Part shown: positions 14,792 through 35,067 of the stretch, one piece after another | Layout of the letters: each line of letters begins with the position of its first letter | How positions within the stretch are numbered: position 1 is the first letter of the stretch | From: Mycobacteriales bacterium | GTDB lineage: Bacteria; Actinomycetota; Actinomycetes; JAFAQI01 | Assembly (NCBI GenBank): GCA_035504215.1 | Contig: DATJSI010000138.1 | Coordinates: 1 to 35,067 of the forward strand | Direction: 5' to 3' | Length of the DNA: 35,067 nucleotides | Program-made: the position numbers and the translations under genes | Notes under the pieces: model-generated | Told to the model about the DNA's origin: nothing | The model's input: the letters and a program-made list of their open reading frames with translations, nothing else | The model's database searches: none

Positions 14792-15991
<1,200 letters not shown>

Positions 15992-16156
15992 GGCGTGCGG
16001 GGTTCCTCGGTCTCTGCGGTGGTTGTGCGGTCGGATCGTGCGGTCCTTTGCGTCTGCTCCGTCGTTACGTATGCTGCGTGGCGGTCCACCTGTGGCGACC
16101 GGCCCAGACGGTGCAACGTCGAGAGCACCGCCGGTTGTTCCGCGGTGCGACCCATC

Positions 16157-16185
16157 ATTCTGCCTCATCCGTTCCTGGATGTCAG
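16157..16185 (-). promoter_or_regulatory. candidate vegetative promoter for the sigma gene at 14792
   Basis: On the minus strand CTGACA (16180-16185) and CAGAAT (16157-16162) are separated by 17 bases, close to TTGACA-N17-TANNNT. It would give a leader of about 155 bases. The 15992-16266 gap holds no other clear feature. Confidence 0.4.
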
Positions 16186-16266
16186 CCTCGGGGGCCTCTG
16201 TGGCGCGTCGGCCACTGGGCTGATACCCGGATTGTCCGCTTTTCATTCCGCCGTGGGGCGTGCTGA

Positions 16267-17001
16267 TCACCCGTTCGGCAACGGTCCGGGCGCGCCGTAG
16301 CGCGCGCCGCGCGCCAGCGTTGCTCCCAGCGACTCGGCGACGTCGCGCGCGGTCGGGGTGTCGACGCCGAGCGCCATGACGCGGGCGCCGAAGCTGTCCG
16401 CGACCTTGAGCAGCCGTGCCACCGGAGCCGAGCGGGCGGCCCGGCCGGGCAACCGGAGGTCCACCTGGACGACGTCCGGACGGACGACATGGGCGCGGGA
16501 CAGCGCCGTGTCGTCATCGGCGACATCGGTGAGGACGACCTGCCAGCCCCACTCCCTGATCTCCGCCAGGCCGGCGTCGAGCTTGACTCCGTCGGCGAAG
16601 GCCTCCGCGTGGATCTCGGCGGCGATCGAGAGCTCCCGGTTCGCTCGGCCCATCAGGCCGGCGAAGCGCGGCGGGCAGGGGGCGCCGTAGGTTTCCGGCT
16701 CCGGGGTGAGGTGCAGCTCGAGCTCGGGGTGGGCCAGCATGTCCTCGACCGCGAGCGCGCGGAACGCGAAGTCGATCCGCTCGACGAAGCCGAGGCTGCG
16801 AGCGCCGTCGAGCAGGCTCAGGGTGTCGCCGAGCTCGGTGCCGGGCGCGCCGCGGCCGGTCGCCTTGAAGCCGACCAGTGTGTCGTCGGTGAGCAGGTGG
16901 ATGGGCTGGTAGTCGGGGCCGAGCTGGCGTGGCTGGGCGAGGAGCCCCTGAATGAGCTCACGGGTGTGAACCGTGCGCTCCAACTCCTCGCTGAGCGGCA
17001 T
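16267..17001 (-). CDS. degenerate EAL-domain protein
   Basis: A 244-residue protein that aligns by pattern with EAL phosphodiesterases: [20 protein letters not shown] (normally YQPI...VGYEALLR), [38 protein letters not shown] (normally ALDDFGTGYSSL) and [10 protein letters not shown] (normally DxLKIDRSF). The E of EAL is replaced (FKA at 45-47), and the DDFG and KxD motifs are altered. Cyclic-di-GMP hydrolysis is therefore very unlikely. Such proteins are usually binding or protein-interaction modules. The start ATG 17001 has no clear ribosome-binding site. Its position directly upstream of a sigma factor gene, same strand, suggests a regulatory link, which is unproven. Confidence 0.72.
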
Positions 17002-18642: not shown

Positions 18643-18727
18643 ACGCATGGCCCATCGGTGGGGCTATAGGGCCACGCATGGCCCATCGGTGGGGCTATAG
18701 CGCCACGCATGGGCCACCGGTGGCTGC
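18643..18727 (+). repeat. 31-bp tandem repeat array B (two full units and a partial)
   Basis: Units start with ACGCATGG at 18643, 18674 and 18705, exactly 31 bases apart. Units 1 and 2 share ACGCATGGCCCATCGGTGGG and continue GCTATAG; the third diverges after CCGGTGG. Each unit can pair GCCCA with TGGGC across a TCGG loop. The array follows the TauE stop by 10 bases. Confidence 0.85.
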
Positions 18728-18753
18728 GGGTCGGCGGAGTTTTGCGCGCCGGC

Positions 18754-18783
18754 GACAACCTCGGCGGCCGGTGCGGTGTCATC
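18754..18783 (+). promoter_or_regulatory. possible ECF-type promoter of the SigE-family gene
   Basis: GACAAC (18754-18759) and GTCATC (18778-18783) are 18 bases apart. The -35 AAC core resembles ECF promoters and could serve autoregulation. The start of transcription would fall near the GTG at 18790. Weak evidence. Confidence 0.25.
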
Positions 18784-18789
18784 ACTGGT

Positions 18790-19311
18790 GTGCAAAGCCG
18801 TGGCGAGGACTTCGACCAGTTCGTGCTGGGCGCGGGCACCGGATTGATGCGGATGGCGGTGGCCTTGACCGGCGATCGTACGGCGGCCGAGGACCTTCTG
18901 CAGGACGTCCTCGAGCGGATGTACGTCGCCTGGCCGCGGATCGACGAGCCGCTTGCCTACGCGCGGCGGTCGCTGGTCAACGCCTCCACGAACCGCTGGC
19001 GAGGTCGCGGTCGGCGGCGCGAGATCGCGCTGTCCGAGGCCGCGCACCTGACCGTGCCGGATCGCAGCGACGACCACGACCGCCGCGACCTCGTGGCGCG
19101 CGCGGTCGCCGCGCTGCCCGCCCGCCAGCGCGCGGTCGTCGTTCTGCGTTTCCTTTGTGACCTATCCGAGGTCGACACCGCATCCGTGCTCGGGTGCACA
19201 GCCGGGACGGTCAAGAGCCAGACTGCCCGCGCACTCGCGCGGTTGCGCGACTTGCTCGACGACGCCTCTGACGCCGAGCCGAACCTCACCCTGACGAGGA
19301 GCATCCGATGA
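18790..19311 (+). CDS. SigE-family ECF RNA polymerase sigma factor
   Basis: A 173-residue ECF sigma factor. Region 2 is FDQFVLGAGTGLMRMAVALTGDRTAAEDLLQDVLERMYVAW, with the AEDLLQ motif, followed by the short linker YARRSLVNASTNRWRGRGRRRE. Region 4 is ALPARQRAVVVLRFLCDLSEVDTASVLGCTAGTVKSQTARALARLR. The pattern fits the actinobacterial SigE family (TIGR02983-like). GTG 18790 (QSRGEDFDQFV) gives the usual length; the frame is open further upstream into repeat array B. The next gene starts within its stop (ATGA), which is the usual place for a cognate regulator. Confidence 0.9.
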   Translation: MQSRGEDFDQFVLGAGTGLMRMAVALTGDRTAAEDLLQDVLERMYVAWPRIDEPLAYARRSLVNASTNRWRGRGRRREIALSEAAHLTVPDRSDDHDRRDLVARAVAALPARQRAVVVLRFLCDLSEVDTASVLGCTAGTVKSQTARALARLRDLLDDASDAEPNLTLTRSIR

Positions 19312-20497: not shown

Positions 20498-21715
20498 CTA
20501 CTCGAGGTAGTCGCGCAGCTTCTGTGAGCGGCTCGGGTGGCGCAGCTTCGACAGCGTCTTCGCCTCGATCTGGCGGATCCGCTCGCGGGTGAGCCCGAAC
20601 TCGCGGCCGATCTCGTCCAGCGTCCGCGGCTGGCCGTCGGTGAGGCCGAACCGCAGCGCGACGACGGCGGCCTCGCGCTCCGGCAGCGTCTTCAGCACGC
20701 TGTCGAGCTCGCGCTGCAGCAACCCGAACGACACGACCTCTGCCGCGATCGGCGCGTCCGCGTCCTCGATGAAGTCACCGAGCTGGCTGTCGCCCTCGTC
20801 GCCGACGTTCTGCTCGAGCGAGACCGGCTCGCGGGCGTAGCCCTGGATCTCGACCACCTTGTCCGGCGTCATGTCGAGCTCGCGCGCGAGCTCCTCCGCC
20901 GTCGGCTCGCGGCCGAGGTCCTGGAGCATCTGGCGCTGGACCCGGGTGAGCTTGTTGATCTGCTCGACCATGTGGACCGGGATGCGGATCGTGCGGGCCT
21001 GGTCGGCCATCGCCCGGGTGATCGCCTGCCGGATCCACCAGGTCGCGTACGTCGAGAACTTGTAGCCCTTGGTGTAGTCGAACTTCTCGACCGCCCGGAT
21101 CAGGCCGAGGTTGCCCTCCTGGATCAGGTCCAGGAACGCCATCCCGCGCCCGGTGTAGCGCTTCGCTACCGACACGACGAGGCGCAGGTTGGCCTCGAGC
21201 AGGTGGTCCTTCGCGCGCTGGCCGTCGGCGGTCAGCCAGATGTAGTCCTTCTGCGTGGTCTTCGACATCCGAAGCTCGCCGCAGTCGGCCTGGCGCAGCC
21301 GCTCGGCCGCGAACAAGCCGGCCTCGATCCGCTTCGCGAGCTCGACCTCCTGCTCGGCGTTGAGCAGGGCGACCCGGCCGATCTCCTTGAGGTAGGCGCG
21401 GACCAGATCGGTCGACGGGCCCGCGTTGTCCTCCTCGACCGCGAGCTCGACGTCGTCGTCCTCGTCCTCGACCAGCTCGCTGGCCGGCGGCTCGGCCTCG
21501 GGGTCGATCTCGGCGATCGCTCCGAGGGCCGGCTCGGCACCCTCGGCCGGCTCGGAAGTTTCGCCTTCCGGGGCGCTCGCAGCGGCGGCGGCCTCGTCGC
21601 CCTCAGGGTCGGCGACGACCGCCATCGAGGACTTTCGGCGACTGCGTGGGGAAGCGGACTTGGCGGGTGCAGACTCCTTCGACGGGCCTGCGGTGGCCTG
21701 GCGTGCGCTGCTCAC
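20498..21715 (-). CDS. sigA: principal RNA polymerase sigma factor (HrdB/SigA type)
   Basis: A 405-residue sigma factor. The N-terminal ~90 residues are low-complexity, first Lys/Ser/Arg-rich, then strongly acidic ([15 protein letters not shown]). All conserved regions follow: 1.2 ([29 protein letters not shown]), 2 ([61 protein letters not shown]), 3 ([28 protein letters not shown]) and 4 ([34 protein letters not shown]). The end [13 protein letters not shown] is the hallmark of actinobacterial HrdB/SigA. GTG 21715 is preceded by GGAGAGG with 6-base spacing; the open frame that runs further upstream crosses the next gene and is not coding. Confidence 0.93.
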
Positions 21716-21796
21716 TAAGGGCCTCTCCCGGGACACGGACTTCGCAGCCAGAGTAGCGCGGGTTTCGGCGTACCCGGCCCGCCAACCGGAACCGAT

Positions 21797-21819
21797 CCGA
21801 TGGCCCATCCGGCGGGCTG
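21797..21819. repeat. lone copy related to the 31-bp repeat core
   Basis: ATGGCCCATCC followed by GGCGGGCT resembles the ATGGCCCATCGGTGGGGCT part of arrays A-C. It lies 7 bases beyond the stop of the gene at 21826-22872. A single, diverged unit. Confidence 0.45.
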
Positions 21820-21825
21820 AAATCG

Positions 21826-22872
21826 TCATCGGACAACGGTCTGTGCGGTGGCGTCCGGGACCCCGGCGATCGCGAACGTCACCGTGATCGGGTAGCCGGT
21901 GCGGAAGTTGCGGCGGTCCGCGGCGTACGACGTGTCGGGCAGGTGCAAGATCAACGACCCGCCCGCTGGGACGACCAGCCGCTGAGCCGGAAACGGCAGC
22001 GGTTGCACCACTTCTGCGGTCGCGCCGTCGCCGAGGCGGTCGTGAACGCCGATCAGGTACGTCGGGGTCGGTTGCAGCGCCACCGGCCGGGGCGAAGAGT
22101 TGGTGAACGTCGCCCGCAGGCCGGTGAGCTCTGCGTCCGGGCTGTTGTGGCGCACCCGCAACGTGACGCGCAGTGCGCGCCACGCAGCGGGCGCCGACTG
22201 CACCGGCTCGCCGATGTCGCCGATCGCTCCCGCGACCAGAGTGGATGCGCTCCGGCCGCGGCACGCGGCCTGCGGCCCGTGCAGCGGCACGTCGAGGGTG
22301 CCGCGCCCGTAACGCAGCCGCACCGCGTCGACGGCCGGCCCGCACCACGACCCGGTCCACGAGAATCCGAGCGCCACCCGCCCGACCGCGAGCGCCGGCG
22401 CTGCGATGTCGGTCGCCGGATTGACCTGATCGAGATCGCCGGCGAGCGGGATCGCCGCGACCGCATGGCCGTCCGAGACGAGCGCCAGGGGTGTCATGGT
22501 GATGGGGAAGTGGCAGGTCCCTCCGATCGCCGTGACCACGCCGATAACGCCATTCGGGGTCGCCCGCAGCGTCCCGGTCGTGCGGATCCGGTCCCTGCGG
22601 CAGACCGGCAGTGGCGGTGGCGGGATCGACTCCGGGGGGATCGGCGCCGGCGCGACGTCGTACGACGATGCCGGGTCCCGCCCACCCGTCGGCCGCAGGA
22701 CGGCAGCTGTGTCGTGGTGGTGGTGCGCCCTGAGCGCGAGCGGGACGGCAACCGCCGTGGCGGCCAGCGCCACGCCGAGTGCGGACGCGACGACGCGGCG
22801 GCGACCTCGTGGCGCCCCCCGCGGCGCCGACTCGAGCACGTCCCCGAGGTCGCGGTCGCGCCAACCGGTCAC
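21826..22872 (-). CDS. membrane-anchored or secreted protein of unknown function
   Basis: A 348-residue protein: about 27 cytosolic residues ([19 protein letters not shown], then RRR), one hydrophobic segment ([21 protein letters not shown]), a His-rich HHHH turn, and a long extracellular part. A proline-rich stretch ([15 protein letters not shown]) leads to beta-rich sequence with paired cysteines ([22 protein letters not shown]). No family is recognised with confidence; the architecture recalls DUF4232-type exported proteins. The start is GTG 22872 with AACGAT six bases upstream, and an 18-bp inverted repeat begins inside that box. Downstream, 110 bases separate it from sigA. Confidence 0.6.
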
Positions 22873-22878
22873 GGGGTG

Positions 22879-22884
22879 ATCGTT
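22879..22884 (-). promoter_or_regulatory. -10-like box of the anchored unknown protein gene
   Basis: AACGAT on the minus strand, six bases before GTG 22872. Four of its bases fall in the left arm of the 18-bp inverted repeat, so a factor binding there would block it. Confidence 0.4.
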
Positions 22885-22972
22885 TCAGCACACAACGCCG
22901 GCGGGAAACCGGACAGGCGGGGTGTGAGCGCGCCAAACCGCCGCCGGTCGGCGCGCGTTGTGTGCTGAAACG
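22881..22972. repeat. 18-bp perfect inverted repeat spanning an intergenic region
   Basis: CGTTTCAGCACACAACGC (22881-22898) and GCGTTGTGTGCTGAAACG (22955-22972) are exact reverse complements, 56 bases apart. An inner CCGGCGG/CCGCCGG pair (22898-22904, 22941-22947) extends the fold. It lies after the aldehyde dehydrogenase stop and over the promoter of the gene starting at 22872. It could be a terminator, a protein-binding site or a small mobile repeat. Confidence 0.75.
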
Positions 22973-23000: not shown

Positions 23001-24473
23001 TTACAAGTCGACCGCGACGTACTTGGTCGTGACGTACTCGTCGATGCCCTCGAGCCCGCCCTCGCGCCCGAAGCCGGACTCCTTGACCCCGCCGAACGGC
23101 GCGGCCGCGTTGCTGACCAGGCCGCGGTTCAGACCGAGCATGCCGACCTCGAGCGCCTCGCTGACCCGGAAGGCGCGCTTGATGTCGCGGGTGAACAGGT
23201 AGGCGACCAGGCCGAAGTCGGTGGCGTTCGCGGCCTCGATGACCTCGTCCTCGGTCGAGAACGTCGCGACCGGCGCGACCGGTCCGAAGATCTCCTCGCG
23301 GAGCAGGTCGGCATCCGGGTTGATGCCGCTCAGCACGGTCGGCGCGTAGAAGTAGCCGCGGTCGCCGACCGTCTCGCCGCCGGTCATGACCTTGGCGCCC
23401 TTGCCGACCGCGTCGTCGACCAGCTCGGCGACCTTGTCGCGTTGCTTGGCGTCGATCAGCGGCCCGAGCTGTACGCCTTCTTCCGTGCCGCGACCGACCT
23501 TCATCGCTCCGAGCTTCTCGCTCAGCCGCGCGGCGAACTCGGTGGCCACGGCCTCGTGGACGAGGAACCGGTTGGCCGCCACGCACGACTCGCCGCCGTT
23601 GCGCATCTTCGCGATCAGTGCCTGGTCGACCGCCTCGTCGAGGTTCGCATCGTCGAACACGATGTACGGCGCATTGCCGCCGAGCTCCATCGAGCACTTG
23701 ATCAGCCGCTTCGAGGCCTGCTCCATCAGCATCTTGCCGATCGGCGTGGAACCCGTGAACGACATCTTCCGCAGGCGCGGATCGTCGAACAACGGGCCGG
23801 TGACGGCAGCAGCACTGTGCGACGTGATGACGTTCAGGACGCCGTCGGGCAGGCCGACCTCCTGCATGATCGAGGCGAGCGCGAGCATCGACAGCGGGGT
23901 TTGCTGCGCCGGCTTGACGACCATCGTGCAGCCGGCCGCGACCGCGGGCCCGATCTTGCGGGTGCCCATCGCGGCGGGGAAGTTCCACGGCGTGATCAGC
24001 AGGCACGGGCCGATCGGCGCCTTCATCGTCAGCAGCCGGCCGGAACCGTTGGGGTTGACGGCATAGCGCCCGTCGATCCGCACCGCCTGTTCGGAGAACC
24101 AGCGCAGGAACTCCGCGGCGTAGACGATCTCCGACTTCGACTCGGCGATCGGCTTGCCCATCTCCAGCGTCATCAGCAGCGCGAGGTCGTCAGCCCGCTC
24201 GTTCATGACCTCGAAGGTGCGGCGGAGGATCTCGCCGCGGTCCCGCGGCGGAGTGGCGGCCCAGGACGCCTGCGCTGCGCAGGCGGCGTCAAGAGCGGCG
24301 ACGGCGTCTTCGGGCGTGCCGTCCGCGACCGCGCACAGCGTCTCTGCTGTGCTCGGGTCCTCGACGTCGAGCGTCTTGCCGTTCGAGCTGTCGCGCCATT
24401 CGCCTCCGATGAACAGTTGGTGCGGCGCGGCGTCAAGGACGCGCTTCTCGTCAGCTGCGGTCACGGTTCCCAT
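23001..24473 (-). CDS. NAD(P)-dependent aldehyde dehydrogenase, succinate-semialdehyde type
   Basis: A 490-residue member of the aldehyde dehydrogenase superfamily. Family landmarks are [32 protein letters not shown], the general base in ELGGNAP, the nucleophile in [21 protein letters not shown], and [14 protein letters not shown]. The overall pattern is closest to succinate-semialdehyde dehydrogenases (GabD), but in this operon a longer aldehyde, such as the product of the fatty acyl reductase, is an alternative substrate. ATG 24473 overlaps the end of the upstream gene by 23 bases; an in-frame GTG nine bases later has AGAGGG at better spacing. Last gene of the seven-gene operon. Confidence 0.88.
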
Positions 24474-25143
24474 CCCTCTGTCGTACACCACGCGGGCCGC
24501 TCGCAACCACCACGACGTCCGGCTCGCCTCTGGCCACCATGATCGCGTGCGACGACACCAGATCGAAATGCCGGCTCAGGAGCCGCTCGTACGCCGGGAC
24601 CGCGGCTGCGCTCCAGACCGCGAGTACGCCGCCCGGGCGGAGCCGGCTCACGAGCAGCGCTATGCCGGACTCGCCGTAGAGGGCCGCGTTGCCGTCGGTC
24701 ACCGTCCAGCCCGGCCCGTTGTCGACGTCGAGGCAGATCACGTCATACGCCGCCGTCGTCGACGCGAGCCAGGAGCCGAGATCGGCGATCACGACCTGGA
24801 CCCTCGGGTCGTCGAGCGCTCCGCTCGAGACGGCCGCGAGATGGGTACGGTGCCAGTCCGCGACCGTGGCCTCGACCTCGACCACCCCGATCCGGCGGAG
24901 GCGCAGATCAGCAACGGCCGCTTGCAGGGAGAACCCGACGCCGAGGCCGCCGATGAGCAGGTCCCGCGGCGCCGGATGGCGGTCCAACGCGGCCCGGACC
25001 AGCAGGCGCTCCGAGCGCCCGTCCCGGGTGTCCATCAGGAATGTGCCGTTGCTGATCACCTCGAAGTGCTCGCCGGCACGCCGCAGGACCAGCTCGCCTC
25101 GAGGCGTCGTCACCCGGTCGAGGACGACCGGACCGTCGGTCAC
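24451..25143 (-). CDS. spermidine synthase-like SAM-binding protein
   Basis: A 230-residue Rossmann-fold protein with GGLGVGFSLQAA as the glycine-rich SAM motif, VVEVEATV as the acidic strand-2 end, and YDVICLDVDNGPGWTV as motif IV. It resembles the spermine/spermidine synthase superfamily but lacks the usual N-terminal domain and the D-x-D-E type aminopropyl acceptor residues. A methyltransferase or other SAM-dependent role is as likely as polyamine synthesis. The GTG start overlaps the upstream stop as GTGA, so it is coupled to the helical protein gene. Confidence 0.7.
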   Translation of the reverse strand: MTDGPVVLDRVTTPRGELVLRRAGEHFEVISNGTFLMDTRDGRSERLLVRAALDRHPAPRDLLIGGLGVGFSLQAAVADLRLRRIGVVEVEATVADWHRTHLAAVSSGALDDPRVQVVIADLGSWLASTTAAYDVICLDVDNGPGWTVTDGNAALYGESGIALLVSRLRPGGVLAVWSAAAVPAYERLLSRHFDLVSSHAIMVARGEPDVVVVASGPRGVRQRDGNRDRS

Positions 25144-25610
25144 CCCGGGATCGGGATGCTGGCGAGCTGCGACTCGACCAGGCTCCGGTCCTCGCCGTCG
25201 GTGACCTTCTCCAGCAGCTGGCGGGTGAGGTCGGCCTCGTACTCGTAGTTGGCCCGGTCGCCGCCGCATGCGTGTGCGCGGGCGAGCCCTTCATGCGCCG
25301 AGGCCTTCATCCACGTGGGCAGGTCGGCAGCTTCGGCCCGAGCCGCGGCCGCGCGGGCGAAACGGAGTGCCACATCGGGGAAGCCGGCCAGGCTGGCCGC
25401 GTGGGCGACCTGCCAGTCGGAAACGGCGAGGTTCTCGTCGGTGCCACCGGCCTCGATCCAGTGCTGCCGGGAGGCGAATGCGAGCGAGAGCATGTCGCGA
25501 TCCTCCGCATCGGATCGCGACGGCTCGTCGATCAGATGCCAGGCCGCGTTGAAGTAGCCCGCTGCGAGCTTGCGGTGGTCGACCGGCGATCCGTCCGCGT
25601 CGCCGGTCAT
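25140..25610 (-). CDS. helical (TPR-like) protein of unknown function
   Basis: A 156-residue, almost wholly helical protein. Paired helices are suggested by AAGYFNAAWHLID, DRDMLSLAFASRQHWIEAGG, VSDWQVAHAASLAGFPDVALRFARAAAARAEA and WMKASAHEGLARAHACGG, in the style of tetratricopeptide repeats. No catalytic motif is seen. Both ends overlap neighbours by 4 bases (ATGA with plsC, GTGA with the SAM-binding gene), so it belongs to the operon. It may be a scaffold or adaptor, which is a guess. Confidence 0.6.
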   Translation of the reverse strand: MTGDADGSPVDHRKLAAGYFNAAWHLIDEPSRSDAEDRDMLSLAFASRQHWIEAGGTDENLAVSDWQVAHAASLAGFPDVALRFARAAAARAEAADLPTWMKASAHEGLARAHACGGDRANYEYEADLTRQLLEKVTDGEDRSLVESQLASIPIPG

Positions 25611-26536
25611 CGCCAGGCCTTGGCCTTCGCCGACCGGGCGGCCGGCCCGGCGGTCGAGGCCCAGACCCGCCGCCAGTTCGCGACCTCGGGGCCGGACGAG
25701 GCCGGCGTCTCGGTGGTAGCGGCCCGGCGTGCTGCCGAGTACCAGTCGGACGAGTCCTCGTCCAGCAGGGCGGCCAGCGCAGCGGACACCCGTCCGTTGA
25801 GCGCGAGCGTGTTCTCGTCGGGCAGGGGTCGCACCGGGCGGCCGTAGCGGACGTGCACCGGAGGGCGGCCGGGCTTGGGCCAGTTCCGGCCACGGGGCAT
25901 CGCGGCGAACGAGCCGATGATCGCCACCGGCACGATCGGGATGCCGTGGGTCCGCGCGAGCGCGGCGGCACCGGGGCGGAAGCGACGGGTCCAGCCATCC
26001 GGTGACCGGGTGCCCTCGGGAAACATCACGATCGACCAGCCCTGCTCGATCAGCGCGGTCGGCGTGTCCGACAGGCCGGTGCCGTGCCGCTCGATCGGGA
26101 AGGTCGCGAACGCGAGTGCGGACCCGATCGCCCGCCACCAGGCATCGAAGAAGTAGTCCGCCGCGGCGCCGACCGTCACCTTGCGCTGCCACTTCACCGG
26201 CAGCGTGGTGAGCAGGAGCGCCGTGTCCAGGTGCGATGCATGGTTGGCGACGATGATCACCGGGCCGTCGAGGCCGTCAAAGACGTCCAGTCCTTCGATC
26301 TCGACCGTGGTCTCGTGACGCACCAGCGGACCGAGGCCGCCGCGCAGGATCACCTCACGGGCCACCCGCGCCGGACGCGAGCGGGCCCACTCGGTCGGGA
26401 ACTCTCTCGGCTCCGGGAAGGTGTGGTGCGGCTCGGCCGACCGAGGCGGCAGCGACCGCCGGGTCCACCGCCAGCCTCGCGACATGACCGCGATGTCGGC
26501 GGCCAGCCCTTGTCCGCGCTGGCGCGTCCTCGTCAT
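25607..26536 (-). CDS. 1-acyl-sn-glycerol-3-phosphate acyltransferase-like (PlsC family)
   Basis: A 309-residue LPLAT-fold acyltransferase. The catalytic H-x4-D motif is NHASHLD (H99, D104), and the phosphate-binding motif is FPEGTR at 172-177, with FPIER and PIVPVAI as further blocks. The family moves an acyl group from acyl-CoA or acyl-ACP to lysophosphatidate or related lysolipids at the membrane. The start ATG 26536 overlaps the LarA-like stop as ATGA; an in-frame ATG at 26485 (MSRGWRW) is possible. The N-terminal ~60 residues are basic, with no clear membrane helix. Its coupling to a fatty acyl reductase gene suggests lipid rather than general phospholipid duty, by inference. Confidence 0.87.
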   Translation of the reverse strand: MTRTRQRGQGLAADIAVMSRGWRWTRRSLPPRSAEPHHTFPEPREFPTEWARSRPARVAREVILRGGLGPLVRHETTVEIEGLDVFDGLDGPVIIVANHASHLDTALLLTTLPVKWQRKVTVGAAADYFFDAWWRAIGSALAFATFPIERHGTGLSDTPTALIEQGWSIVMFPEGTRSPDGWTRRFRPGAAALARTHGIPIVPVAIIGSFAAMPRGRNWPKPGRPPVHVRYGRPVRPLPDENTLALNGRVSAALAALLDEDSSDWYSAARRAATTETPASSGPEVANWRRVWASTAGPAARSAKAKAWR

Positions 26537-28110
26537 CTCACGTCCGACAGGATGTGCGGCGGCGCGTGCTGATAGGTGATCGTCGGGCTCGACCCGACCG
26601 TGTCGCGCGCCAGTTCGAGCGCGTCGGCGAACGTCGATGCGGAGCGCATTCCCATCCGCGCAACCGCGCGGCGGTCGCCGCCGACCCAGATGACCTGGCC
26701 GAGATGCTCGAGCGCGTGCGCGCACCAGTACCACATGTAGAACGGGTGCACACCGTGGTAGGCGTGCGACGTCCGGTAGAGGTGCGTGTACCAGGGATCG
26801 GTCGCGTACTGCTGCTCAAACTTCGGCCCGATCACCTTCGGGTCCGTGCTCTCCGCGAGTACCTCGTCGAAGAAGTCGACGTACGACGGATGGTGCAGCG
26901 TCGAGAACTCCCACGGCACCGGGTGATGAAGGATCAACACCCCACCCTCGCGGACGAGCGGCTTCCCGCGGTACATGTTGAACAGGTAGCCGCGGCCGAG
27001 GCAGGCCGCGAGGATCGGGTTCATGACGCTGTTGACGTTGTAGGGGCACAGATACGGCAGGCCCATCACGAGGATGTCGGTCTGCCCGTTGACCTCGACC
27101 AGCTGCTGGCGGTGCACGCGTTCGAGGGTCTGTTCGTGCACCGGCTCGACGGCGCCCGCGCTGACGCCGGTGACGGCGTACGGCGCCTCCATCTGCTGGA
27201 ACAGCCGCCGGCGCGTCTTCGCCGGCATCAGGTCGAGTCCTCGCTTGGTGCCGAGGAAGACCGCTTGGTCGCGGATCGACCACTCCCACTCGCGCTTGGT
27301 GAGGAAGCCGTACTGCGACGGGAACGCGTCGTTGTTCAGCGTCGTCTCGATCTGGAAGACCTTCACGTGCTCCGACAGCACGCGACCCATCCGCCATGCG
27401 CTCGAGTGCAGCTCCGAGTGCCGCGGGTCCATGAAGGAGCGCGAGTGCACCATCGTGTGCGCGTTGTGGTGGTGACGCAGCGAGTTGTACGACGCCAGAC
27501 CGACGGCCGTCGACTTCCAGCCGCCGTCCATCGCGACCAGGTTGATGTTCACGTAGACCAACAGGTCCGACTCCGCAGCCCGCTTCGAGATCTCGACGTC
27601 CTCGTCGCGATCGGTCTTGCCGAGGTGCGCAAGGTTGGCGTGGTCCTCCGCGTCGAAGTTGTAGAGCTGGTCCGGCCAGAACGACCGGAACACCCGCTCG
27701 CCGACCGCGGCCTTGACCTCGTCCGCGGTCATCCGGCGATGCAACGCGGTGGCGATGATCAGCTCGACGTCGTCGACCCCGGCGTCCGCGGCGTACTGGA
27801 GGACGCGTTCGAGGATGCGCTGGCGGACATCCGGCTTGCGCATCGGCGGGAGTGGGAGGGACAGGTCGTCGAACGCGATCGTCAGCTTCATCCCGGCGTG
27901 CAGCAGCGCCGGCAGCGGCTCGCTGTCGACCGGGTTGAGCAGTGCGGCCTCGATCGCCTCGTCGACGTCCGGCACGCCGGGCAGCGACTCCGGCGGGTAG
28001 ATCACGCGGGTCCCGAGCGGGAACTGCTGCAGCCGGAACGACTCGCCGGAGTGCAGCAGCATCGGCGGGGTCCGCTCATCGACCGTGAGGACGAATCCGG
28101 GGCGGCTCAT
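26533..28110 (-). CDS. LarA-like (DUF2088) protein, possible nickel-pincer enzyme
   Basis: A 525-residue protein with the LarA N-terminal domain: LTIAFDDLSLPLPPM, then VDDVELIIATALHRRMTADE, then AMDGGWKSTAVGLASYNSLR and HHHNAH. In Lactobacillus plantarum LarA, as I recall, His108, His174, Lys184 and His200 bind the nickel-pincer cofactor. By spacing, H124, K199 and H215 correspond to three of them, but the His174 position (about 188-190) reads NIN. The C-terminal half (PYLCPYNVNSVMNPILAACLGRGYLFNMYRGKPLV) is longer than in LarA (about 425 residues). A racemase or epimerase of an unknown hydroxy acid or alcohol is possible. LarB, LarC and LarE are not in the window. ATG 28110 has AGGAG at 7-base spacing. 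Confidence 0.75.
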   Translation of the reverse strand: MSRPGFVLTVDERTPPMLLHSGESFRLQQFPLGTRVIYPPESLPGVPDVDEAIEAALLNPVDSEPLPALLHAGMKLTIAFDDLSLPLPPMRKPDVRQRILERVLQYAADAGVDDVELIIATALHRRMTADEVKAAVGERVFRSFWPDQLYNFDAEDHANLAHLGKTDRDEDVEISKRAAESDLLVYVNINLVAMDGGWKSTAVGLASYNSLRHHHNAHTMVHSRSFMDPRHSELHSSAWRMGRVLSEHVKVFQIETTLNNDAFPSQYGFLTKREWEWSIRDQAVFLGTKRGLDLMPAKTRRRLFQQMEAPYAVTGVSAGAVEPVHEQTLERVHRQQLVEVNGQTDILVMGLPYLCPYNVNSVMNPILAACLGRGYLFNMYRGKPLVREGGVLILHHPVPWEFSTLHHPSYVDFFDEVLAESTDPKVIGPKFEQQYATDPWYTHLYRTSHAYHGVHPFYMWYWCAHALEHLGQVIWVGGDRRAVARMGMRSASTFADALELARDTVGSSPTITYQHAPPHILSDVR

Positions 28111-29288
28111 GACGCACTCCTGAGATCGAACGCCACCTTCAATGTTCCCAACCGACCCGCATCATGCGCATGATCGAGCGCTTCGCGCCACCGGCCGAGT
28201 GGATAGGCGACTCCGACGAGGTCGTCGAGCGGCGCAGTCGCCGCCAGGCGCGTCGCGACATCGAACGCGTCGCCCGCGCTCGCGTACGCACCGGTCACGT
28301 CGAGCTCGCGGAACCAGGCCGGCGTCAGGTCGATGCCGTCGCCGGGCACCCCGGCGAGCACGACGAGCCCGCCGGCTCGCACGTTGCGCAGCGCGGTGTC
28401 GACCGACCCGCGCGACCCGACCGCGTCGATCGCCACATCGACCCCTCCGAGCAGGTACGCCGGCCCGCGTTCCGGCTCTAGTCGCAGTGCGCGGGTGGAC
28501 CGGCGTACGGCGGTCGCGACGTCGGACGGCGATACGACGTCGCTCGCGCCGAACAGCCTGGCCAGCTCTGCCTGCCGACGGTGCTTGGCGACGATCGTCA
28601 CCTGGCCGGCAGGCGTGAGCTCGCGGAGCGCGAGCGCGGTGAACAGGCCGACCGCGCCCGCCCCAACGATCAGCGCCGAGCCGCCGTCACCGAGATCGGC
28701 ACGCCGGGCGATGTGCACCGCGCAGGCCAGCGGCTCGATCAGCACGGCCCGGTTGTCCGGCAGGTCGTCCGGGACCGGATGCAGCTGCGAGACGTGCGCG
28801 ACCAGCTCGCCGCTCCACCCGCCGCCGGTGTCGGCGCAGTAGCCGGTCTGCAGCCCGGGGGAAAGGTGACCGACGGTGACACGGTCGCAGCGGTTGGTCT
28901 GCCCGACCCGGCAGGAGTCGCACGGCTCGAGCCCGCGCGCCCGGCAGCCGAGCACAGGGTCGAGGACCACGCGGGTCCCGGCCGGGATGCCGGGGGCGTC
29001 ATCGCGGGTCTCGCCGATGATCTCGTGGCCGGGCACGAACGGCAGGGACACCAGCGGGCTGAAGTACAGCGACGTGTGACCGGAGAGTGTGGCGAGGTCG
29101 CTCCCGCAGATCCCGGACAGTCGCGGGCGGACCCGGACCCAACCGTCGGTGCGCGCCCGCGGCCCGTCCCGATGGACCAGGCGAAGCGGAGCGAGCGGGC
29201 CCGCAAGCAGGCCGGGCAGCTTCGGCCCGACCGCCCTGGCCGCGACGTAGCGCGGCAGCGACCGGTAGACCTCGAGCGCGGAGATCAC
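28107..29288 (-). CDS. zinc-dependent alcohol dehydrogenase (MDR superfamily)
   Basis: A 393-residue medium-chain dehydrogenase. Catalytic zinc residues are C61 in GICGSD and H88-E89 in PGHEIIGE. The structural zinc lobe has cysteines in CRARGLEPCDSCRVGQTNRC. The nucleotide-binding motif is IVGAGAVGLFTAL, and the substrate-domain segment is IEPLACAVH. It most resembles the threonine/sorbitol dehydrogenase side of the family; the real substrate is unknown. The GTG start overlaps the fusion gene's stop as GTGA, and its stop overlaps the LarA-like start as ATGA. In this operon it could interconvert a fatty or other alcohol and the carbonyl form. Confidence 0.85.
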   Translation of the reverse strand: MISALEVYRSLPRYVAARAVGPKLPGLLAGPLAPLRLVHRDGPRARTDGWVRVRPRLSGICGSDLATLSGHTSLYFSPLVSLPFVPGHEIIGETRDDAPGIPAGTRVVLDPVLGCRARGLEPCDSCRVGQTNRCDRVTVGHLSPGLQTGYCADTGGGWSGELVAHVSQLHPVPDDLPDNRAVLIEPLACAVHIARRADLGDGGSALIVGAGAVGLFTALALRELTPAGQVTIVAKHRRQAELARLFGASDVVSPSDVATAVRRSTRALRLEPERGPAYLLGGVDVAIDAVGSRGSVDTALRNVRAGGLVVLAGVPGDGIDLTPAWFRELDVTGAYASAGDAFDVATRLAATAPLDDLVGVAYPLGRWREALDHAHDAGRLGTLKVAFDLRSAS

Positions 29289-31555
29289 GGAACCGCCGCC
29301 ACGGTCGGTGCGGTCGACGACGTGCGGCCGCCGTGCCAGATCTCGATCGGCCAGCGCTCCTTGCGTGCGACCCGGAACAGGATCACGTCGGGGTCGATCG
29401 CGACCGGCCGGCCCACCGCGCGCAGCAGCGGAAGGTCGCTCGCGGAGTCGGCGTACGCGTAGCTGTTGTCGAGGTCCCAGCCCGCCTCCGCCGCACGATG
29501 GCGTACCCAGGCGGCGCGGGACTCGCCGACCAGCGGCGGCCGGTCGAGGTGGCCCGTGCAGCGGCCGAACTGGTCGGTCGAGAGGTCGGCCGCCATGACC
29601 TCGTCGAACAGCGCCGCGATCGGGCGGGTGAGCGGGCGCACGGCTCCCGTGACGAGAAGCAGGTAGTGCCCCGCCTGGCGGTGCTCGCGGATCGCACGGA
29701 CTGCTTGAGGAGACAGCCGCGTGAGCATCATCGGCGCGATCTCGTCGTCGACGATGCGCTCCAGCTCGCGGATCGACGCGCCTTCATACCGGCGGTAGAC
29801 CATGCGAAGGAACGACGACCGGTCGCGGCGCTGCGTCATCAGCCAGCGCGGCAGCGCGCGCGCCACCTCGGTGACCTCGCGGGCCTTCGCCGCAAGCGCG
29901 AGCTCGGGCAGCCGCAGCCAGAGGTAGGACTCGACGACGTTGCTCGCGAGCAGCGTGCCGTCCATGTCGAACACGACGACCGTGTCCGGGCTGGCGCCGC
30001 TCACCGAACGCGTGGGATCGGTCCGCTTCCCCCGCAGCGCGGTGAGTGCGTTGAGCGGGCCGACGACCGCGGGGACGTGGACCTCGTTGATGTAGTGCCG
30101 CCAGTCGATGGCCATCGCGTCGAAGCCGAAGGCCTCGACGTCGTCCGGATGCAGGGCCTCGTGCAGGGCGAGCGTCGAGCGGTCCGAGAAGTGCAGCTCG
30201 GCGTCGGCGTACGGACGGTAGAGGTCGAAGTAGCGCCGAAGGAAGTCCAAGCGGCCGCGCTGCCGGTCAAGGGTCCGAGCCCAGTCGCGGGTGCGCGCCG
30301 AGCGCGGCAGTGACGTCACGACCTTGTCCGCGGTGCGGTGTGCGCGGTCGCCGAGCCGGATCAGCTGGTCGACCCGTTCGGAACCCGGCCACTGCCAGCG
30401 GGGCACCCGGACCTCGCCGCGGTCGCGTTGCACCATCGGGTGCTCGCTGAAGTACGTCGATACCAGCTCGTAGAGCCGGTGGAAGCTCAGCGGGTTCCTG
30501 GCGCCCGAACAGATCGTGTAGTACTCCGGCGTGCCCGGCTCGGGCCGGCGGGCCGCGGCGGCGAGGGTCGCGTTGACGACCAGGTCGACCGGGATGATGT
30601 CGATGACACCGTCGGGGATGCCGGGGAACTCCGGCAGGTCGCCGCGGCCGAAGGCCAGGATGATCGGCTCGGCCATCTTGAAGCCCTCGATCCAGCCCGG
30701 GTAGGGCTGGAGCAGCGCGCTCTCGATGATGCTGGGCCGCAGGATCGTGACCGGAAGGTCGGACGCCGTCTCCTCCACCGCGCGCTCGGCCATCGCCTTC
30801 GTGAACGTGTAGCAGTCCGTCCAACCGAGGCTGCGGCCGCGTTCGCGCCCGGCGTCGACCAGCTTCTTCGTGACCCACTCGCGGCGGCGGCGTTCGGCTT
30901 CGGCCGACACGGACAGCGCGCCCAGCGTCGAGTGGTCGGCGTCCGCCTCTGCCGTGAAGATCGCCAGCTGCTCCGCGGACCGGCTGTCCATCTCGGCGCG
31001 CTCACGAAGCTGGGCCGCCACCGCTGCCTCGCTGCGCCAGTCGACCGTGTGGTCGAGCCGGCCCTCCCGCACGTGACCTTGCTGCCGGCCCGCGACGTAC
31101 GCCGTGGACACATGCACGTAATGCGGCCGGCTCCCGCTCTCGTCGATCGCGGCGAGCAGGTTCAGCGAGCCATGCACATTGGTCGCGAAACCCTCGTCGA
31201 TCGCCGGATCGAACGACACCTCGCCGGCGCAGTGGATGACGATGTCGAGGTCGTCGGGCAGGTTGGGCACCGCGTCGAGGTCGCCTTCGAGCACGGTGAT
31301 GTGACCGTTGTCGACCAGCTCGGAGAGGTCCGTGCCGCGCGCCTCGCGCAGCCGCTCGAAGGCGGGTCCGTTCAGCACGTGGCGGACCCGATCGGTGGCA
31401 CCGAGCAGCCCACGGGCCCGCACCAGCAGCACGACCGGCGTCTCCGGCAGGTCGTGCAGCAGGCGCTCGAGCAAGGCCTCGCCGACGAAGCCGGTGGATC
31501 CGGTGACCAGAACTCGCTGGCCGGCAAGCACCTCGGCGATCGGCCGGGCGGTCAT
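29285..31555 (-). CDS. fatty acyl-CoA reductase fused to a HAD-IB phosphatase-like domain
   Basis: A 756-residue two-domain protein. Residues about 10-390 form an extended SDR of the fatty acyl reductase / male-sterility type (NAD_binding_4): TGSTGFVG at 18-25, VIHCAGEVSF, HVSTAYVAG, the catalytic Y249-T-F-T-K253, and RPSIIESALLQPYPGWIEG. Residues about 390-510 resemble the FAR C-terminal helical region. Residues about 525-735 are a HAD hydrolase of subclass IB: FDMDGTLLASN (D530, D532), LLLVTGAVRP, and YADSASDLPLL. Expected chemistry is NADPH reduction of an acyl-CoA to aldehyde or alcohol plus removal of a phosphate, linked in one chain. ATG 31555 is chosen; an in-frame GTG at 31573 is possible. 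First gene of the operon. Confidence 0.88.
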   Translation of the reverse strand: MTARPIAEVLAGQRVLVTGSTGFVGEALLERLLHDLPETPVVLLVRARGLLGATDRVRHVLNGPAFERLREARGTDLSELVDNGHITVLEGDLDAVPNLPDDLDIVIHCAGEVSFDPAIDEGFATNVHGSLNLLAAIDESGSRPHYVHVSTAYVAGRQQGHVREGRLDHTVDWRSEAAVAAQLRERAEMDSRSAEQLAIFTAEADADHSTLGALSVSAEAERRRREWVTKKLVDAGRERGRSLGWTDCYTFTKAMAERAVEETASDLPVTILRPSIIESALLQPYPGWIEGFKMAEPIILAFGRGDLPEFPGIPDGVIDIIPVDLVVNATLAAAARRPEPGTPEYYTICSGARNPLSFHRLYELVSTYFSEHPMVQRDRGEVRVPRWQWPGSERVDQLIRLGDRAHRTADKVVTSLPRSARTRDWARTLDRQRGRLDFLRRYFDLYRPYADAELHFSDRSTLALHEALHPDDVEAFGFDAMAIDWRHYINEVHVPAVVGPLNALTALRGKRTDPTRSVSGASPDTVVVFDMDGTLLASNVVESYLWLRLPELALAAKAREVTEVARALPRWLMTQRRDRSSFLRMVYRRYEGASIRELERIVDDEIAPMMLTRLSPQAVRAIREHRQAGHYLLLVTGAVRPLTRPIAALFDEVMAADLSTDQFGRCTGHLDRPPLVGESRAAWVRHRAAEAGWDLDNSYAYADSASDLPLLRAVGRPVAIDPDVILFRVARKERWPIEIWHGGRTSSTAPTVAAVP

Positions 31556-31606: not shown

Positions 31607-32317
31607 ATGCGGTGTTCCTACAGCGCGACGTACGCCGAGCCGGTGGATCGGGTCTGGCCGATCGGCGAAGCGCTCGACCAGGCGCTCTCGGCGCTGCCGG
31701 GCGCGACCCTCGCCCGCGCGGGCGACACGGCCAGCGGCTCGGTCAGGTGCACCCTCGGTTCGACCCAGGTGACCTACCGCGTGACGGCCCGCGCGACCGG
31801 CCGGGCCACGGCGGTCGACGGCGGCACTCGCTCGACGGTCATCACGGTCGAGGGCAAGGAGGCCCGCGGCGACGGGCTGCTGGCGGCCACCTTGACCGTG
31901 ACGGCGGCCCAGGCGGGCACCGGCTGCACGGTTGAGGTCGGTGGCGACATCGCGGTCACCGGCCGCGGCGAGCGGGCGGACGCGACCGGCTGGTCCCGGG
32001 TGCTCGGCCGCCTCGCGGACGGGTTCGCCGGATCGGGCGCCGAGCACTCGGTTGCCGCGCCGGCCCCGGCGACCGGCACGGCGGAGCCGGCGACCCGCGC
32101 GGCGAGGCCGGCGATCACCTCTCCCGACGAGCCGGCGGCGCCCCGGCCGGCGTTGACCGCGGCCGTCCCTGGCGCGGACCGGTGGACATCGCGGCCGTCC
32201 TGGCTGACCCCGAGGCTGCTCGGCCTGGCCGCGACTGTGATGGTGTTGGTGGTTCGGCGCCGACGGCGCCGGGCCCGGCGGGCTCGCGCGGAGATGGAGA
32301 CGAATGGCAAGCACTGA
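31607..32317 (+). CDS. CoxG-like SRPBCC domain protein with C-terminal membrane anchor
   Basis: A 236-residue protein. Residues about 1-145 have the SRPBCC/CoxG pattern ([75 protein letters not shown]). A Pro/Ala-rich linker of about 50 residues follows, then one hydrophobic segment ([13 protein letters not shown]) and a very basic tail ([13 protein letters not shown]). CoxG proteins help membrane attachment or maturation of CO dehydrogenase-type molybdoenzymes, none of which is visible here. The ATG has CAGAAT exactly six bases upstream and no ribosome-binding site. The 3' end overlaps the malate synthase gene by 14 bases. Confidence 0.7.
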
Positions 32318-33902
32318 CGCTGCGCAGGTGACCGGTCCGCTCGAGGACCGGTTCGACGAGATCCTGACGCCGTCGGCGCTCGACTTCGTCGCGGACCTCC
32401 AGCGGGCGTTCGGCGCCCGTCGTACCGAGCTGCTCGCCCGCCGGCGAGAGCGCCGGGCGCAGGCTGCGGCGACCGGACGGCTGGACTTCCTCGACGAGAC
32501 GAAGGACGTCCGCGAAGACTCCGGCTGGCAGGTTGCGCCGCCCGCGGACCTGCTCGACCGGCGCGTGGAGATCACCGGTCCGACCGAGAAGAAGATGCTG
32601 GTCAACGCGCTCAACTCCGGTGCGAAGGTCTTCATGGCGGACTTCGAGGACGCGAGCACCCCCACCTGGCACAACAAGGTGCAGGGGCAGCTGAACCTGA
32701 TCGACGCGATCGAGCGCCGGATCGACTTCGTGTCGCCGGAGGGCAAGAGCTACGCGCTGAACCCCACTGTCGCCGCGCTGATGCCACGTCCGCGCGGCTG
32801 GCACCTGCCCGAGAAGCACCTGCTCGTCGACGGCGAACCGGTGAGCGGCGGCTTGTTCGACTTCGGGCTGTTCTTCTTCCACAACGTGCTGCGGCTGCAG
32901 GCCAAGGGGACGCGGCCGTACTTCTACCTCCCGAAGATGGAGTCGCATCTCGAGGCGCGGCTGTGGAACGACGTCTTCAACCACGCGCAGGATGCGCTCG
33001 GTGTCGCCCGCGGGACGATCCGCGCGACCGTGCTGATCGAGACGATCCCCGCGGCGTTCGAGATGGATGAGATCCTCTACGAGCTGCGCGAGCACTCCTA
33101 CGGCCTGAACGCCGGCCGCTGGGACTACATGTTCTCGATGATCAAGACCTTTCGCGACCGCGGCAAGGAGTTCCTGCTCCCGGACCGCAACAGCGTGACC
33201 ATGACGGTGCCGTTCATGCGCGCGTACACCGAGTTGTTGGTGCAGACCTGCCACAAGCGCGGTGCGTTCGCGATGGGCGGAATGGCGGCGTTCATCCCGA
33301 GCCGCAAAGACCCGGAGGTGAACCGGGTGGCGCTCGAGCGGGTGAAGGCGGACAAGGAGCGCGAGGCGGCCGCGGGCTTCGACGGGACCTGGGTAGCGCA
33401 TCCCGACCTCGTGCCGACGGCGCTCGCCGAGTTCGACGCGGTCCTCGGCGACCGGCCGAACCAGATCGACAAGCTGCGACCGGACGTGCACGTCACCGCC
33501 GACGACCTGCTCGCGGTCGCTCTGACGCCCGGTGAGAAGACCAGCGTCGGCCTGCGCACGAACGTCGATGTCGGGATCCGGTACATCGAGTCGTGGCTGC
33601 GCGGCAACGGGGCGGCGGCGATCCACAACCTGATGGAGGACGCGGCGACCGCCGAGATATCGCGGTCCCAGATCTGGCAGTGGATCCACAACGACGCGAC
33701 CCTCGCCGACACCGGTGAGCAGGTGAGCGCGGCGCTCGTGCGGTCGGTCGCGGACGACGTGATGGCCGAGGTTCGCCGTGAGGTGGGCGACGAGGCCTAC
33801 TCCGCCGGTCGGTGGGACGAGGCGCGAGAGATCTTCGAGCAGGTTGCCCTGTCCGACGACTTTTTCGACTTCCTGACCCTTCCGGCCTACGACCGGTTGT
33901 AG
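32304..33902 (+). CDS. aceB: malate synthase A
   Basis: Condenses glyoxylate and acetyl-CoA to malate in the glyoxylate shunt. The 532-residue length is right for isoform A (about 530; isoform G is about 720). Signatures include [97 protein letters not shown] and [11 protein letters not shown]. The glyoxylate/Mg-binding Glu and Asp are expected in VLIETIPA and FEMDEI, and the catalytic Asp in the C-terminal domain ([19 protein letters not shown]). GGAGATGGAGA precedes the ATG. It overlaps the SRPBCC gene, and the GlcD gene begins 5 bases after its stop, so glyoxylate supply and use are co-expressed. Confidence 0.96.
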
Positions 33903-33907
33903 ACGGG

Positions 33908-35067
33908 TTGGGCGCGCTCGACACTCTCGCTGCGGACTGCGTCCGCCGGTTCGGAGCGGCGCAGGTCGTGACTGATCATGCCGAGCTCCGTACGTATGAG
34001 TCGGACGGTCTGGCCTCCTACCGCTGCATCCCGGGACTGGTCATCCTCGCTGAGTCAGCGGAGGACGTCGCGTACGTCGTGGGGCGCTGCGCGGCCGCCG
34101 GCGTCCCGTTCGTCGCCCGCGGTTCGGGCACCGGCCTGTCGGGTGGCGCGCTGCCGCGCAGTGACGGCGTACTGATCGTCCTGTCGCGAATGCGCCGGAT
34201 CGTGGACGTCGACCTCGACGACGAGCGAGCCGTCGTGCAACCCGGAGTGATCAATGCGGACCTCACCAAGGCGGTCGCGGCCGACGGCTTCTACTACGCA
34301 CCGGATCCCTCGAGCCAGCAGGTCTGCTCGCTCGGCGGCAACGTCGCGGAGAACTCCGGCGGAGCGCACTGTCTGAAGTACGGCTTCACCGCACACCACG
34401 TCACCGCGCTCGAGCTGGTGCTGCCCGACGGCTCGATCGAGCGAGTCGGCGGCCGCGCGCCCGACCCGGTGGGGTACGACGTCGGCGGTGCCGTCGTCGG
34501 CAGCGAGGGCACGCTGTGCGTCGTCACGGAGGCGACCGTCCGGTTGCTGCGCAAGCCGCAGGCGGTGCAGACCGTGCTGGCCGGCTTCCGCACCATCGAG
34601 GACGCCGGGGCCGCCGTCAGCGCGATCATCGCCGCCGGAGTGCTCCCGGCCGCGATCGAGCTGATGGACGCGCTTGCGATCGAAGCCGCCGAGGCTGCCG
34701 TGCACCCGAACTATCCGGCCGCGGCGGGAGCAGTCATGGTGGCCGAGCTGGACGGGCCGGCGTGCGAGGTCGATGCGCAGCTCGCCGAGGTGCAGCGGTT
34801 CTCCACGACGGCGGGAGCCTTCGAGATCCGGGTGGCCCGCGACGACGTCGAGCGCGCATTGATCTGGAGGGGCCGCAAGTCGGCGTTCGCGGCGGTCGGT
34901 CGGATCAGCCCGGACTACATCGTCCAGGACGGCGTGATCCCTCGTACCGCGCTGCCGGAGGTGCTGCTCGCGATCGAGTCGCTCGCGGCAGCGGCAGGCA
35001 TCCGGGTCGCGAACGTCTTTCACGCCGGTGACGGCAACCTGCACCCGCTCGTGCTGTTCGACGACAC
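33908..35067 (+). CDS. glcD: FAD-linked glycolate/2-hydroxyacid oxidase subunit GlcD, 3' end cut by window
   Basis: The frame is open from TTG 33908, five bases after the aceB stop, to the window end (386 residues seen; the family is about 460-500). The PCMH-type FAD domain is clear: VARGSGTGLSGGALP, VQPGVINADLTKAVA, then PDPSSQQVCSLGGNVAENSGGAHCLKYG and GGAVVGSEGTLCVVTEATVRL. The C-terminal domain has FHAGDGNLHPLVLFDD. It oxidises glycolate, or possibly D-lactate, to the 2-oxo acid; coupling to malate synthase favours glycolate. No other start codon fits better, and no ribosome-binding site is visible, so reinitiation after aceB is likely. GlcE/GlcF partners would lie beyond the window. Confidence 0.88.
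   Translation, partial: MGALDTLAADCVRRFGAAQVVTDHAELRTYESDGLASYRCIPGLVILAESAEDVAYVVGRCAAAGVPFVARGSGTGLSGGALPRSDGVLIVLSRMRRIVDVDLDDERAVVQPGVINADLTKAVAADGFYYAPDPSSQQVCSLGGNVAENSGGAHCLKYGFTAHHVTALELVLPDGSIERVGGRAPDPVGYDVGGAVVGSEGTLCVVTEATVRLLRKPQAVQTVLAGFRTIEDAGAAVSAIIAAGVLPAAIELMDALAIEAAEAAVHPNYPAAAGAVMVAELDGPACEVDAQLAEVQRFSTTAGAFEIRVARDDVERALIWRGRKSAFAAVGRISPDYIVQDGVIPRTALPEVLLAIESLAAAAGIRVANVFHAGDGNLHPLVLFDD

Follow-up and report, generated by a model that had tools for sequence, protein, structure and literature searches.

The operon and its conserved four-gene core

The window analysed here is a stretch of 35,067 nucleotides from a Mycobacteriales bacterium (GenBank assembly GCA_035504215.1, contig DATJSI010000138.1), and the element under study is an operon of seven minus-strand genes whose conserved part suggests an unrecognised bacterial way of making ether-linked membrane lipids, common to many actinobacteria. 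The first gene (29285..31555) encodes FAR-HAD, a 756-aa fatty acyl-CoA reductase (FAR) fused to a HAD-IB phosphatase, with Pfam matches to NAD_binding_4 (3.7e-46), Sterile (1.1e-8) and HAD (2.1e-34); the solved FAR 7eoz was matched by its reductase part over residues 6-497 (E 1e-53). The second (28107..29288) encodes a 393-aa zinc-type alcohol/polyol dehydrogenase (ADH) of the medium-chain dehydrogenase/reductase (MDR) class, in which ADH_N and ADH_zinc_N domains were detected and the zinc ligands are present, and whose closest solved proteins are ketose reductase and sorbitol-type dehydrogenases. Next come LarA (26533..28110), a 525-aa LarA-like nickel-pincer nucleotide (NPN) enzyme of the LarAH14/15/16 family, and PlsC (25607..26536), a 309-aa PlsC-type acyltransferase (Acyltransferase 2.9e-21) carrying NHxSHLD and FPEGTRS motifs.

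Three accessory genes complete the row. They encode a small helical orphan protein of 156 aa (25140..25610) that found no match in Pfam or NCBIfam, a 230-aa protein with a spermidine-synthase-like S-adenosylmethionine (SAM) fold (24451..25143; Spermine_synth 1.1e-9) and a 490-aa aldehyde dehydrogenase (ALDH; 23001..24473; Aldedh 3.6e-162) resembling succinate-semialdehyde dehydrogenase (SSADH), which scored slightly under the cut-off of the NCBIfam SSADH subfamily. All seven frames, read on the window, are free of internal stops and overlap consecutively by 4, 4, 4, 4, 4 and 23 bp. The genes and their overlaps agree with the initial annotation, and its family assignments were borne out by Pfam and NCBIfam, with only the helical protein left unmatched.

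The same annotation had read all seven genes as one pathway with equimolar production and had proposed conserved neighbourhoods as the check. A phylum-wide sample of 396 genomes yielded LarA genes above the cut-off of NF052592, the NCBIfam family for LarAH14/15/16, in 86 of its members; the corresponding figures were 33 of 297 for the class and 9 of 13 for the host's order, the last rising to 12 of 13 when any match was counted. The neighbourhoods of 56 above-cut-off LarA genes were examined, two diverged Frankia ones included, and the full order FAR-HAD > ADH > LarA > PlsC was present in 46; three of the other ten end at contig edges, one is without ADH, and six, all from one Rubrobacter-like family, are without PlsC beside LarA. 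Among 80 named loci (Kribbella, Nocardioides, Actinomadura, Frankia and its relatives, Nitriliruptorales, Acidimicrobiia and others), the entire core was found in 65 of the 69 that are untruncated, with ADH missing from three and PlsC from one; one locus with a split ADH match was tallied manually. The four core proteins also diverge in step (Spearman 0.68-0.83).

Comparison of the same neighbourhoods restricted the helical, SAM and ALDH genes to the host's own family. There, ALDH occurs in all eight loci that show the stretch downstream of PlsC, and the helical and SAM genes are variable even within this group. What is conserved is a unit of four genes, FAR-HAD > ADH > LarA > PlsC, rather than seven. 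The single-pathway reading gained support, the neighbourhood check came out strongly positive for the core, and the seven-gene module was rejected because its last three members are family-specific. The 4-bp overlaps were likewise set aside as the key signal. Overlaps of this length are commonplace in these loci. The FAR-ADH junction is -4 in most relatives, and the ADH-LarA and LarA-PlsC spacings elsewhere range between slight overlap and separation by 100-200 bp; because these two spacings vary across genomes, the exact overlap carries no signal of its own. The signal is conserved gene order and co-inheritance, and equimolar production, which had been deduced from the overlaps, loses its basis.

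LarA and the nickel-pincer nucleotide

LarA matched NF052592 over residues 6-525 with 909 bits (cut-off 740). In an alignment of 20 sequences the NPN-binding lysine (K184 of LarA racemases) corresponds to K199 and the nickel-binding histidine (H200) to H215, both invariant. D82 and H124 are conserved, the latter being the first catalytic histidine (H108). The racemases' pair of catalytic histidines is incomplete, since the position of the second (H174) is occupied by N190, and R75 of the NPN site falls on L85 (DDLSLP aligned to DHTRP). The predicted structure (pLDDT, the predicted local distance difference test, of 90.6) has 9q3k as its top PDB fold match, and its closest folds are two recently solved single-histidine LarA enzymes. 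Previous work reported groups 14 and 15 to be without H174 and described group 16 as being without the NPN residues (PMC7583248, PMC12611868).

At the genome level, LarC and LarE are each present in 47 of 49 operon genomes, compared with 3 of 26 LarA-negative genomes (Fisher p about 6e-14 for LarC, ignoring phylogeny). The host genome encodes LarC on contig C96 and LarE on C112, and in several lineages LarB, LarC or LarE lies directly beside the operon. Judged from its residues and these partner genes, LarA is predicted to use the nickel-pincer cofactor.

LarA enzymes are known to act on 2-hydroxyacids (PMC7583248, PMC11770544). The operon could accordingly be read as catabolic, feeding 2-hydroxyacids or aldehydes to central metabolism, with LarA racemising or epimerising some soluble 2-hydroxyacid in the conventional way. 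The NCBIfam family name agrees with such a role, as do two nearby genes of the window whose products handle 2-hydroxyacids: malate synthase A (32304-33902, +) and glycolate oxidase GlcD (33812-35065, +) are adjacent and transcribed divergently from the operon, forming a pair for glycolate use that the contig end truncates. However, glycolate genes were not among the recurrent neighbours in the flanks of 41 loci, FAR and PlsC are ill-suited to catabolism, and the second catalytic histidine is replaced by asparagine. Moreover, LarAH14 from Frankia sp. gave zero activity in seven 2-hydroxyacid assays (PMC7583248). We consider a catabolic role improbable.

AGPS-type loci and the Frankia operons

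FAR-HAD was also found in genomes without this LarA. Its companions there are a short-chain dehydrogenase/reductase (SDR), a similar PlsC (39-48% identity to the operon PlsC) and an FAD protein of 560 aa, and the four genes often form a single array. The two versions differ in having SDR versus ADH and AGPS versus LarA. The FAD protein matched solved alkyl-dihydroxyacetone phosphate (alkyl-DHAP) synthases, or AGPS, with E values of 1.4e-108 and 1.3e-81, compared with 1.7e-19 for D-lactate dehydrogenase, and this match indicates that the LarA-less version carries the known ether-lipid set: a fatty alcohol former, an alkyl-DHAP synthase, a reductase and an acyltransferase.

The distribution of AGPS is exclusive of LarA. 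Across 80 genomes tested, true AGPS (over 600 bits) was present in 14 of 14 FAR-HAD genomes without LarA and in 9 of 9 Frankia sensu stricto genomes, and in none of 49 genomes with a live LarA and none of 8 controls. In the phylum sample of 396 genomes, an AGPS-like match above 370 bits was found in 0 of 86 live-LarA genomes versus 31 of the 310 others (p 5e-4, no tree correction); only two of these 31 belong to the true-AGPS subfamily. A weaker AGPS-like subfamily scores about 300 bits and reads PQSF...GGY where the true group has PDSF...STLGGW. LarA genomes, Frankia and a Mycobacterium-like control all carry this paralog; the host genome is without true AGPS, its top match being a PQSF paralog of 302 bits. 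Judged from the true-group signature positions shared with the Dictyostelium enzyme, the PQSF subfamily is treated as a probably different enzyme.

Separately, a related LarA subfamily was noted outside the operon at L095-L097 (families f23 and f37), with about 39-40% identity and sub-cut-off scores of 520-536 bits. The same genomes carry an AGPS-like protein with a PESF signature where it was read.

In the FAR tree, the AGPS-linked FARs fall into one clade beside the LarA-linked Haloactinopolyspora-type FARs, plus a lone branch (G569), and a LarA-dead Frankia branch is nested among LarA-linked relatives. Since FARs of AGPS-linked or LarA-dead type branch off at three points within the LarA-linked ones, LarA has been replaced by AGPS on three separate occasions. 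The association statistics above ignore the tree, the three swaps are independent on the FAR tree, and many of the genomes are metagenome-assembled.

The LarA-dead branch belongs to genus g271, which we take to be Frankia sensu stricto. LarC and LarE have been lost from 9 of 9 of its genomes, and same-family relatives have both. Alignment of eight g271 loci (L057, L058 and L188-L193) revealed that the operon is still in place; the NPN lysine of LarA is gone, in some together with H124, and the zinc ligands are likewise missing from ADH. FAR retains an intact YxxxK motif and PlsC an intact HxxxxD motif, and the HAD motif reads DLDGA. AGPS sits at another locus in these genomes, and its presence had been set as a test before the search. 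The group offers a natural experiment, cofactor synthesis, both active sites and the alternative enzyme having changed together. The dead frames nevertheless remain open, with dN/dS values (0.21-0.35 for ADH, 0.15-0.22 for LarA) close to those of intact relatives. Open frames under such purifying selection indicate that the dead ADH and LarA are probably kept for a non-catalytic role, of which the simplest would be as parts of a complex; they are a better hint of a physical complex than the overlaps are.

Joint decay of ADH and LarA beside intact FAR and PlsC motifs would also fit a pathway in which the former pair makes or inverts another building block, for example of glycerate or 2-hydroxyacyl type. 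In that case the product would be some lipid derived from fatty alcohol, but not an alkyl-glycerol ether, and AGPS genomes would make a different lipid from the same FAR-HAD and PlsC. The 2-hydroxyacid chemistry of the LarA family (PMC7583248, PMC11770544) points the same way. However, LarA and ADH have repeatedly been swapped cleanly for AGPS and SDR while FAR-HAD and PlsC stayed the same, a pattern that speaks for an unchanged end product, and we regard a different building block as unlikely.

A candidate route to ether lipids and its nearest relatives

Comparison of the two versions supports the view that this is probably an ether-lipid operon in which NPN-LarA and ADH replace AGPS and its reductase. 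The initial annotation had proposed a lipid-related pathway, with ether lipids among its guesses, and this proposal gained support; our literature search agreed with it in finding no characterised pathway with this gene set, nor any paper in which NPN or lactate racemase is connected to FAR, to HAD or to ether lipids.

In the proposed route, FAR-HAD would reduce acyl-CoA or acyl-ACP to a fatty alcohol, an activity predicted from its family, and the PlsC/PlsY side would supply 1-acyl glycerol-phosphate or glycerone-phosphate. NPN-loaded LarA could then swap the acyl group for the fatty alcohol, taking AGPS's position in the known pathway. This exchange might proceed by a hidden redox step, with H124 deprotonating the C2 hydroxyl and NPN parking the C2 hydride; the transient ketone would be the acyl-DHAP used by AGPS, and the hydride would be returned after exchange. 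ADH would oxidise or reduce C2, in the position of the alkyl-DHAP reductase (SDR), and PlsC would acylate sn-2 last. The assignments of FAR to fatty alcohol formation and PlsC to acylation appear the firmer part of this scheme, and acyl-to-alkyl exchange by LarA and C2 redox by ADH are put forward with less support. More tentatively still, and with somewhat less than even confidence, an NPN enzyme may form the glycerolipid ether bond by an AGPS-independent hidden redox reaction that is widespread in aerobic soil actinobacteria, with the dead ADH and LarA of Frankia persisting as scaffold subunits.

Several observations weigh against this interpretation. NPN enzymes are, to our knowledge, known solely as 2-hydroxyacid racemases or epimerases, and a carboxylate-free substrate would be unprecedented; the exchange chemistry for LarA is possible in outline only, and the literature searched contained no account of these aerobic actinobacteria having ether lipids. 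At four Acidimicrobiia-type loci (L080, L165, L168 and L174) the ADH gene is absent between FAR and LarA, and LarA is kept. In two genomes (G263 and G294; loci L080 and L088) the NPN residues are kept, yet LarC, LarE and AGPS were undetected. The HAD phosphatase may be dispensable, because its motif varies from DLENT in Acidimicrobiia loci, the four above included (second Asp to Glu), to DLDGA in Frankia sensu stricto. Finally, the PQSF paralog occurs in live-LarA genomes, the host's among them, and the exclusion would lose force if this paralog were a working AGPS.

FAR and acyltransferase are a common storage-lipid pairing, and a wax-ester or neutral-lipid operon could be envisaged in which FAR gives a fatty alcohol, PlsC esterifies it, and ADH and LarA contribute side activities. 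Such an operon leaves the AGPS exclusion and the linkage to NPN genes unexplained, and the acyltransferase is a PlsC rather than a wax synthase, making this the least probable of the alternatives. Long-chain diol or hydroxy-fatty lipids were also considered, and the neighbourhoods offer no support for them.

If LarA does form the ether bond by hidden redox, the operon represents another general route to bacterial ether lipids and LarA the first NPN enzyme with a job other than 2-hydroxyacid isomerisation. An orphan LarA family, tested unsuccessfully in 2020, would gain a testable function, the nickel-pincer cofactor would be linked to membrane lipids, and a large group of aerobic soil bacteria is proposed as ether-lipid makers, where aerobic sources and enzymes of such lipids are poorly known.

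The surroundings of the operon were surveyed as well. Among 143 flanking proteins from the 41 loci, tallied by Pfam family, TetR was the only frequent family (11 proteins); LarC, LarB, LarE and PlsY were seen two or three times each, and PlsY immediately precedes FAR in two loci of Rubrobacteraceae-like type. In the window, an inverted repeat with 17-bp perfect arms (22881..22972, no strand assigned) lies just after the operon and before the next gene, its two copies oppositely oriented where none is expected by chance; it may mark the transcript end and was absent from the other fetched loci. Elsewhere are a WXG100 protein with a C-terminal CdiA-type RNase A toxin domain (635-2035, -), a small overlapping open reading frame (2032-2313, -) that could encode an immunity or partner protein, and, within 9 kb, two sigma-70-type (RpoD-like) factors (14792-16270 and 20498-22936) and one factor resembling the extracytoplasmic function type (18709-19311), with an EAL-domain protein (16267-17001) in the same region. 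The FAD-oxidase gene at 33812 was rejected as a candidate AGPS, being GlcD, and a viral origin was rejected after a search gave zero matches.

Known systems resemble the operon in part. The anaerobic PlsA/PlsR and Ger enzymes also create ether-type bonds in bacterial lipids, but they start from a finished lipid, whose ester they reduce, and occur mostly in anaerobes (PMC9702350, PMC11868695); no such gene was seen in the operon. LarA belongs to the same family (NF052592) as the Frankia LarAH14 (PMC7583248), a family without known activity for whose operon no ether-lipid reading was found in the literature searched; group 16 may be the dead Frankia type. The single-histidine LarA-Bw and LarA-Sp (9q3j, 9q3k) share the best fold match, the asparagine in place of the second catalytic histidine, and the retained NPN lysine and nickel histidine, but identity is about 20% and their context is one of sugar genes (PMC12611868) rather than lipid genes.

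Ether-lipid clusters of M. xanthus combine FAR, acyltransferase and NAD-dependent reductase with either AGPS or a HAD protein (PMC9131029). Its elb cluster (ElbD FAR-ACS-ACP-AGPAT, ElbB HAD and ElbE) likewise unites a FAR domain, a HAD hydrolase and an acyltransferase in one ether-lipid operon (PMC9131029). Unlike ElbD, the FAR studied here is fused to HAD alone and is without ACS or ACP domains, and neither LarA nor a zinc ADH has been described in elb.

The peroxisomal AGPS route consists of FAR1, GNPAT, AGPS and a reductase, with MXAN_1676-1674 as its M. xanthus counterpart. Like the operon, it brings together a FAR, an acyltransferase and an enzyme of keto-reductase type, and LarA-less actinobacteria hold orthologous FAR-HAD and PlsC together with AGPS and SDR. 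In contrast, the operon itself is without AGPS, and an NPN LarA and a zinc MDR dehydrogenase would take the places of AGPS and SDR.

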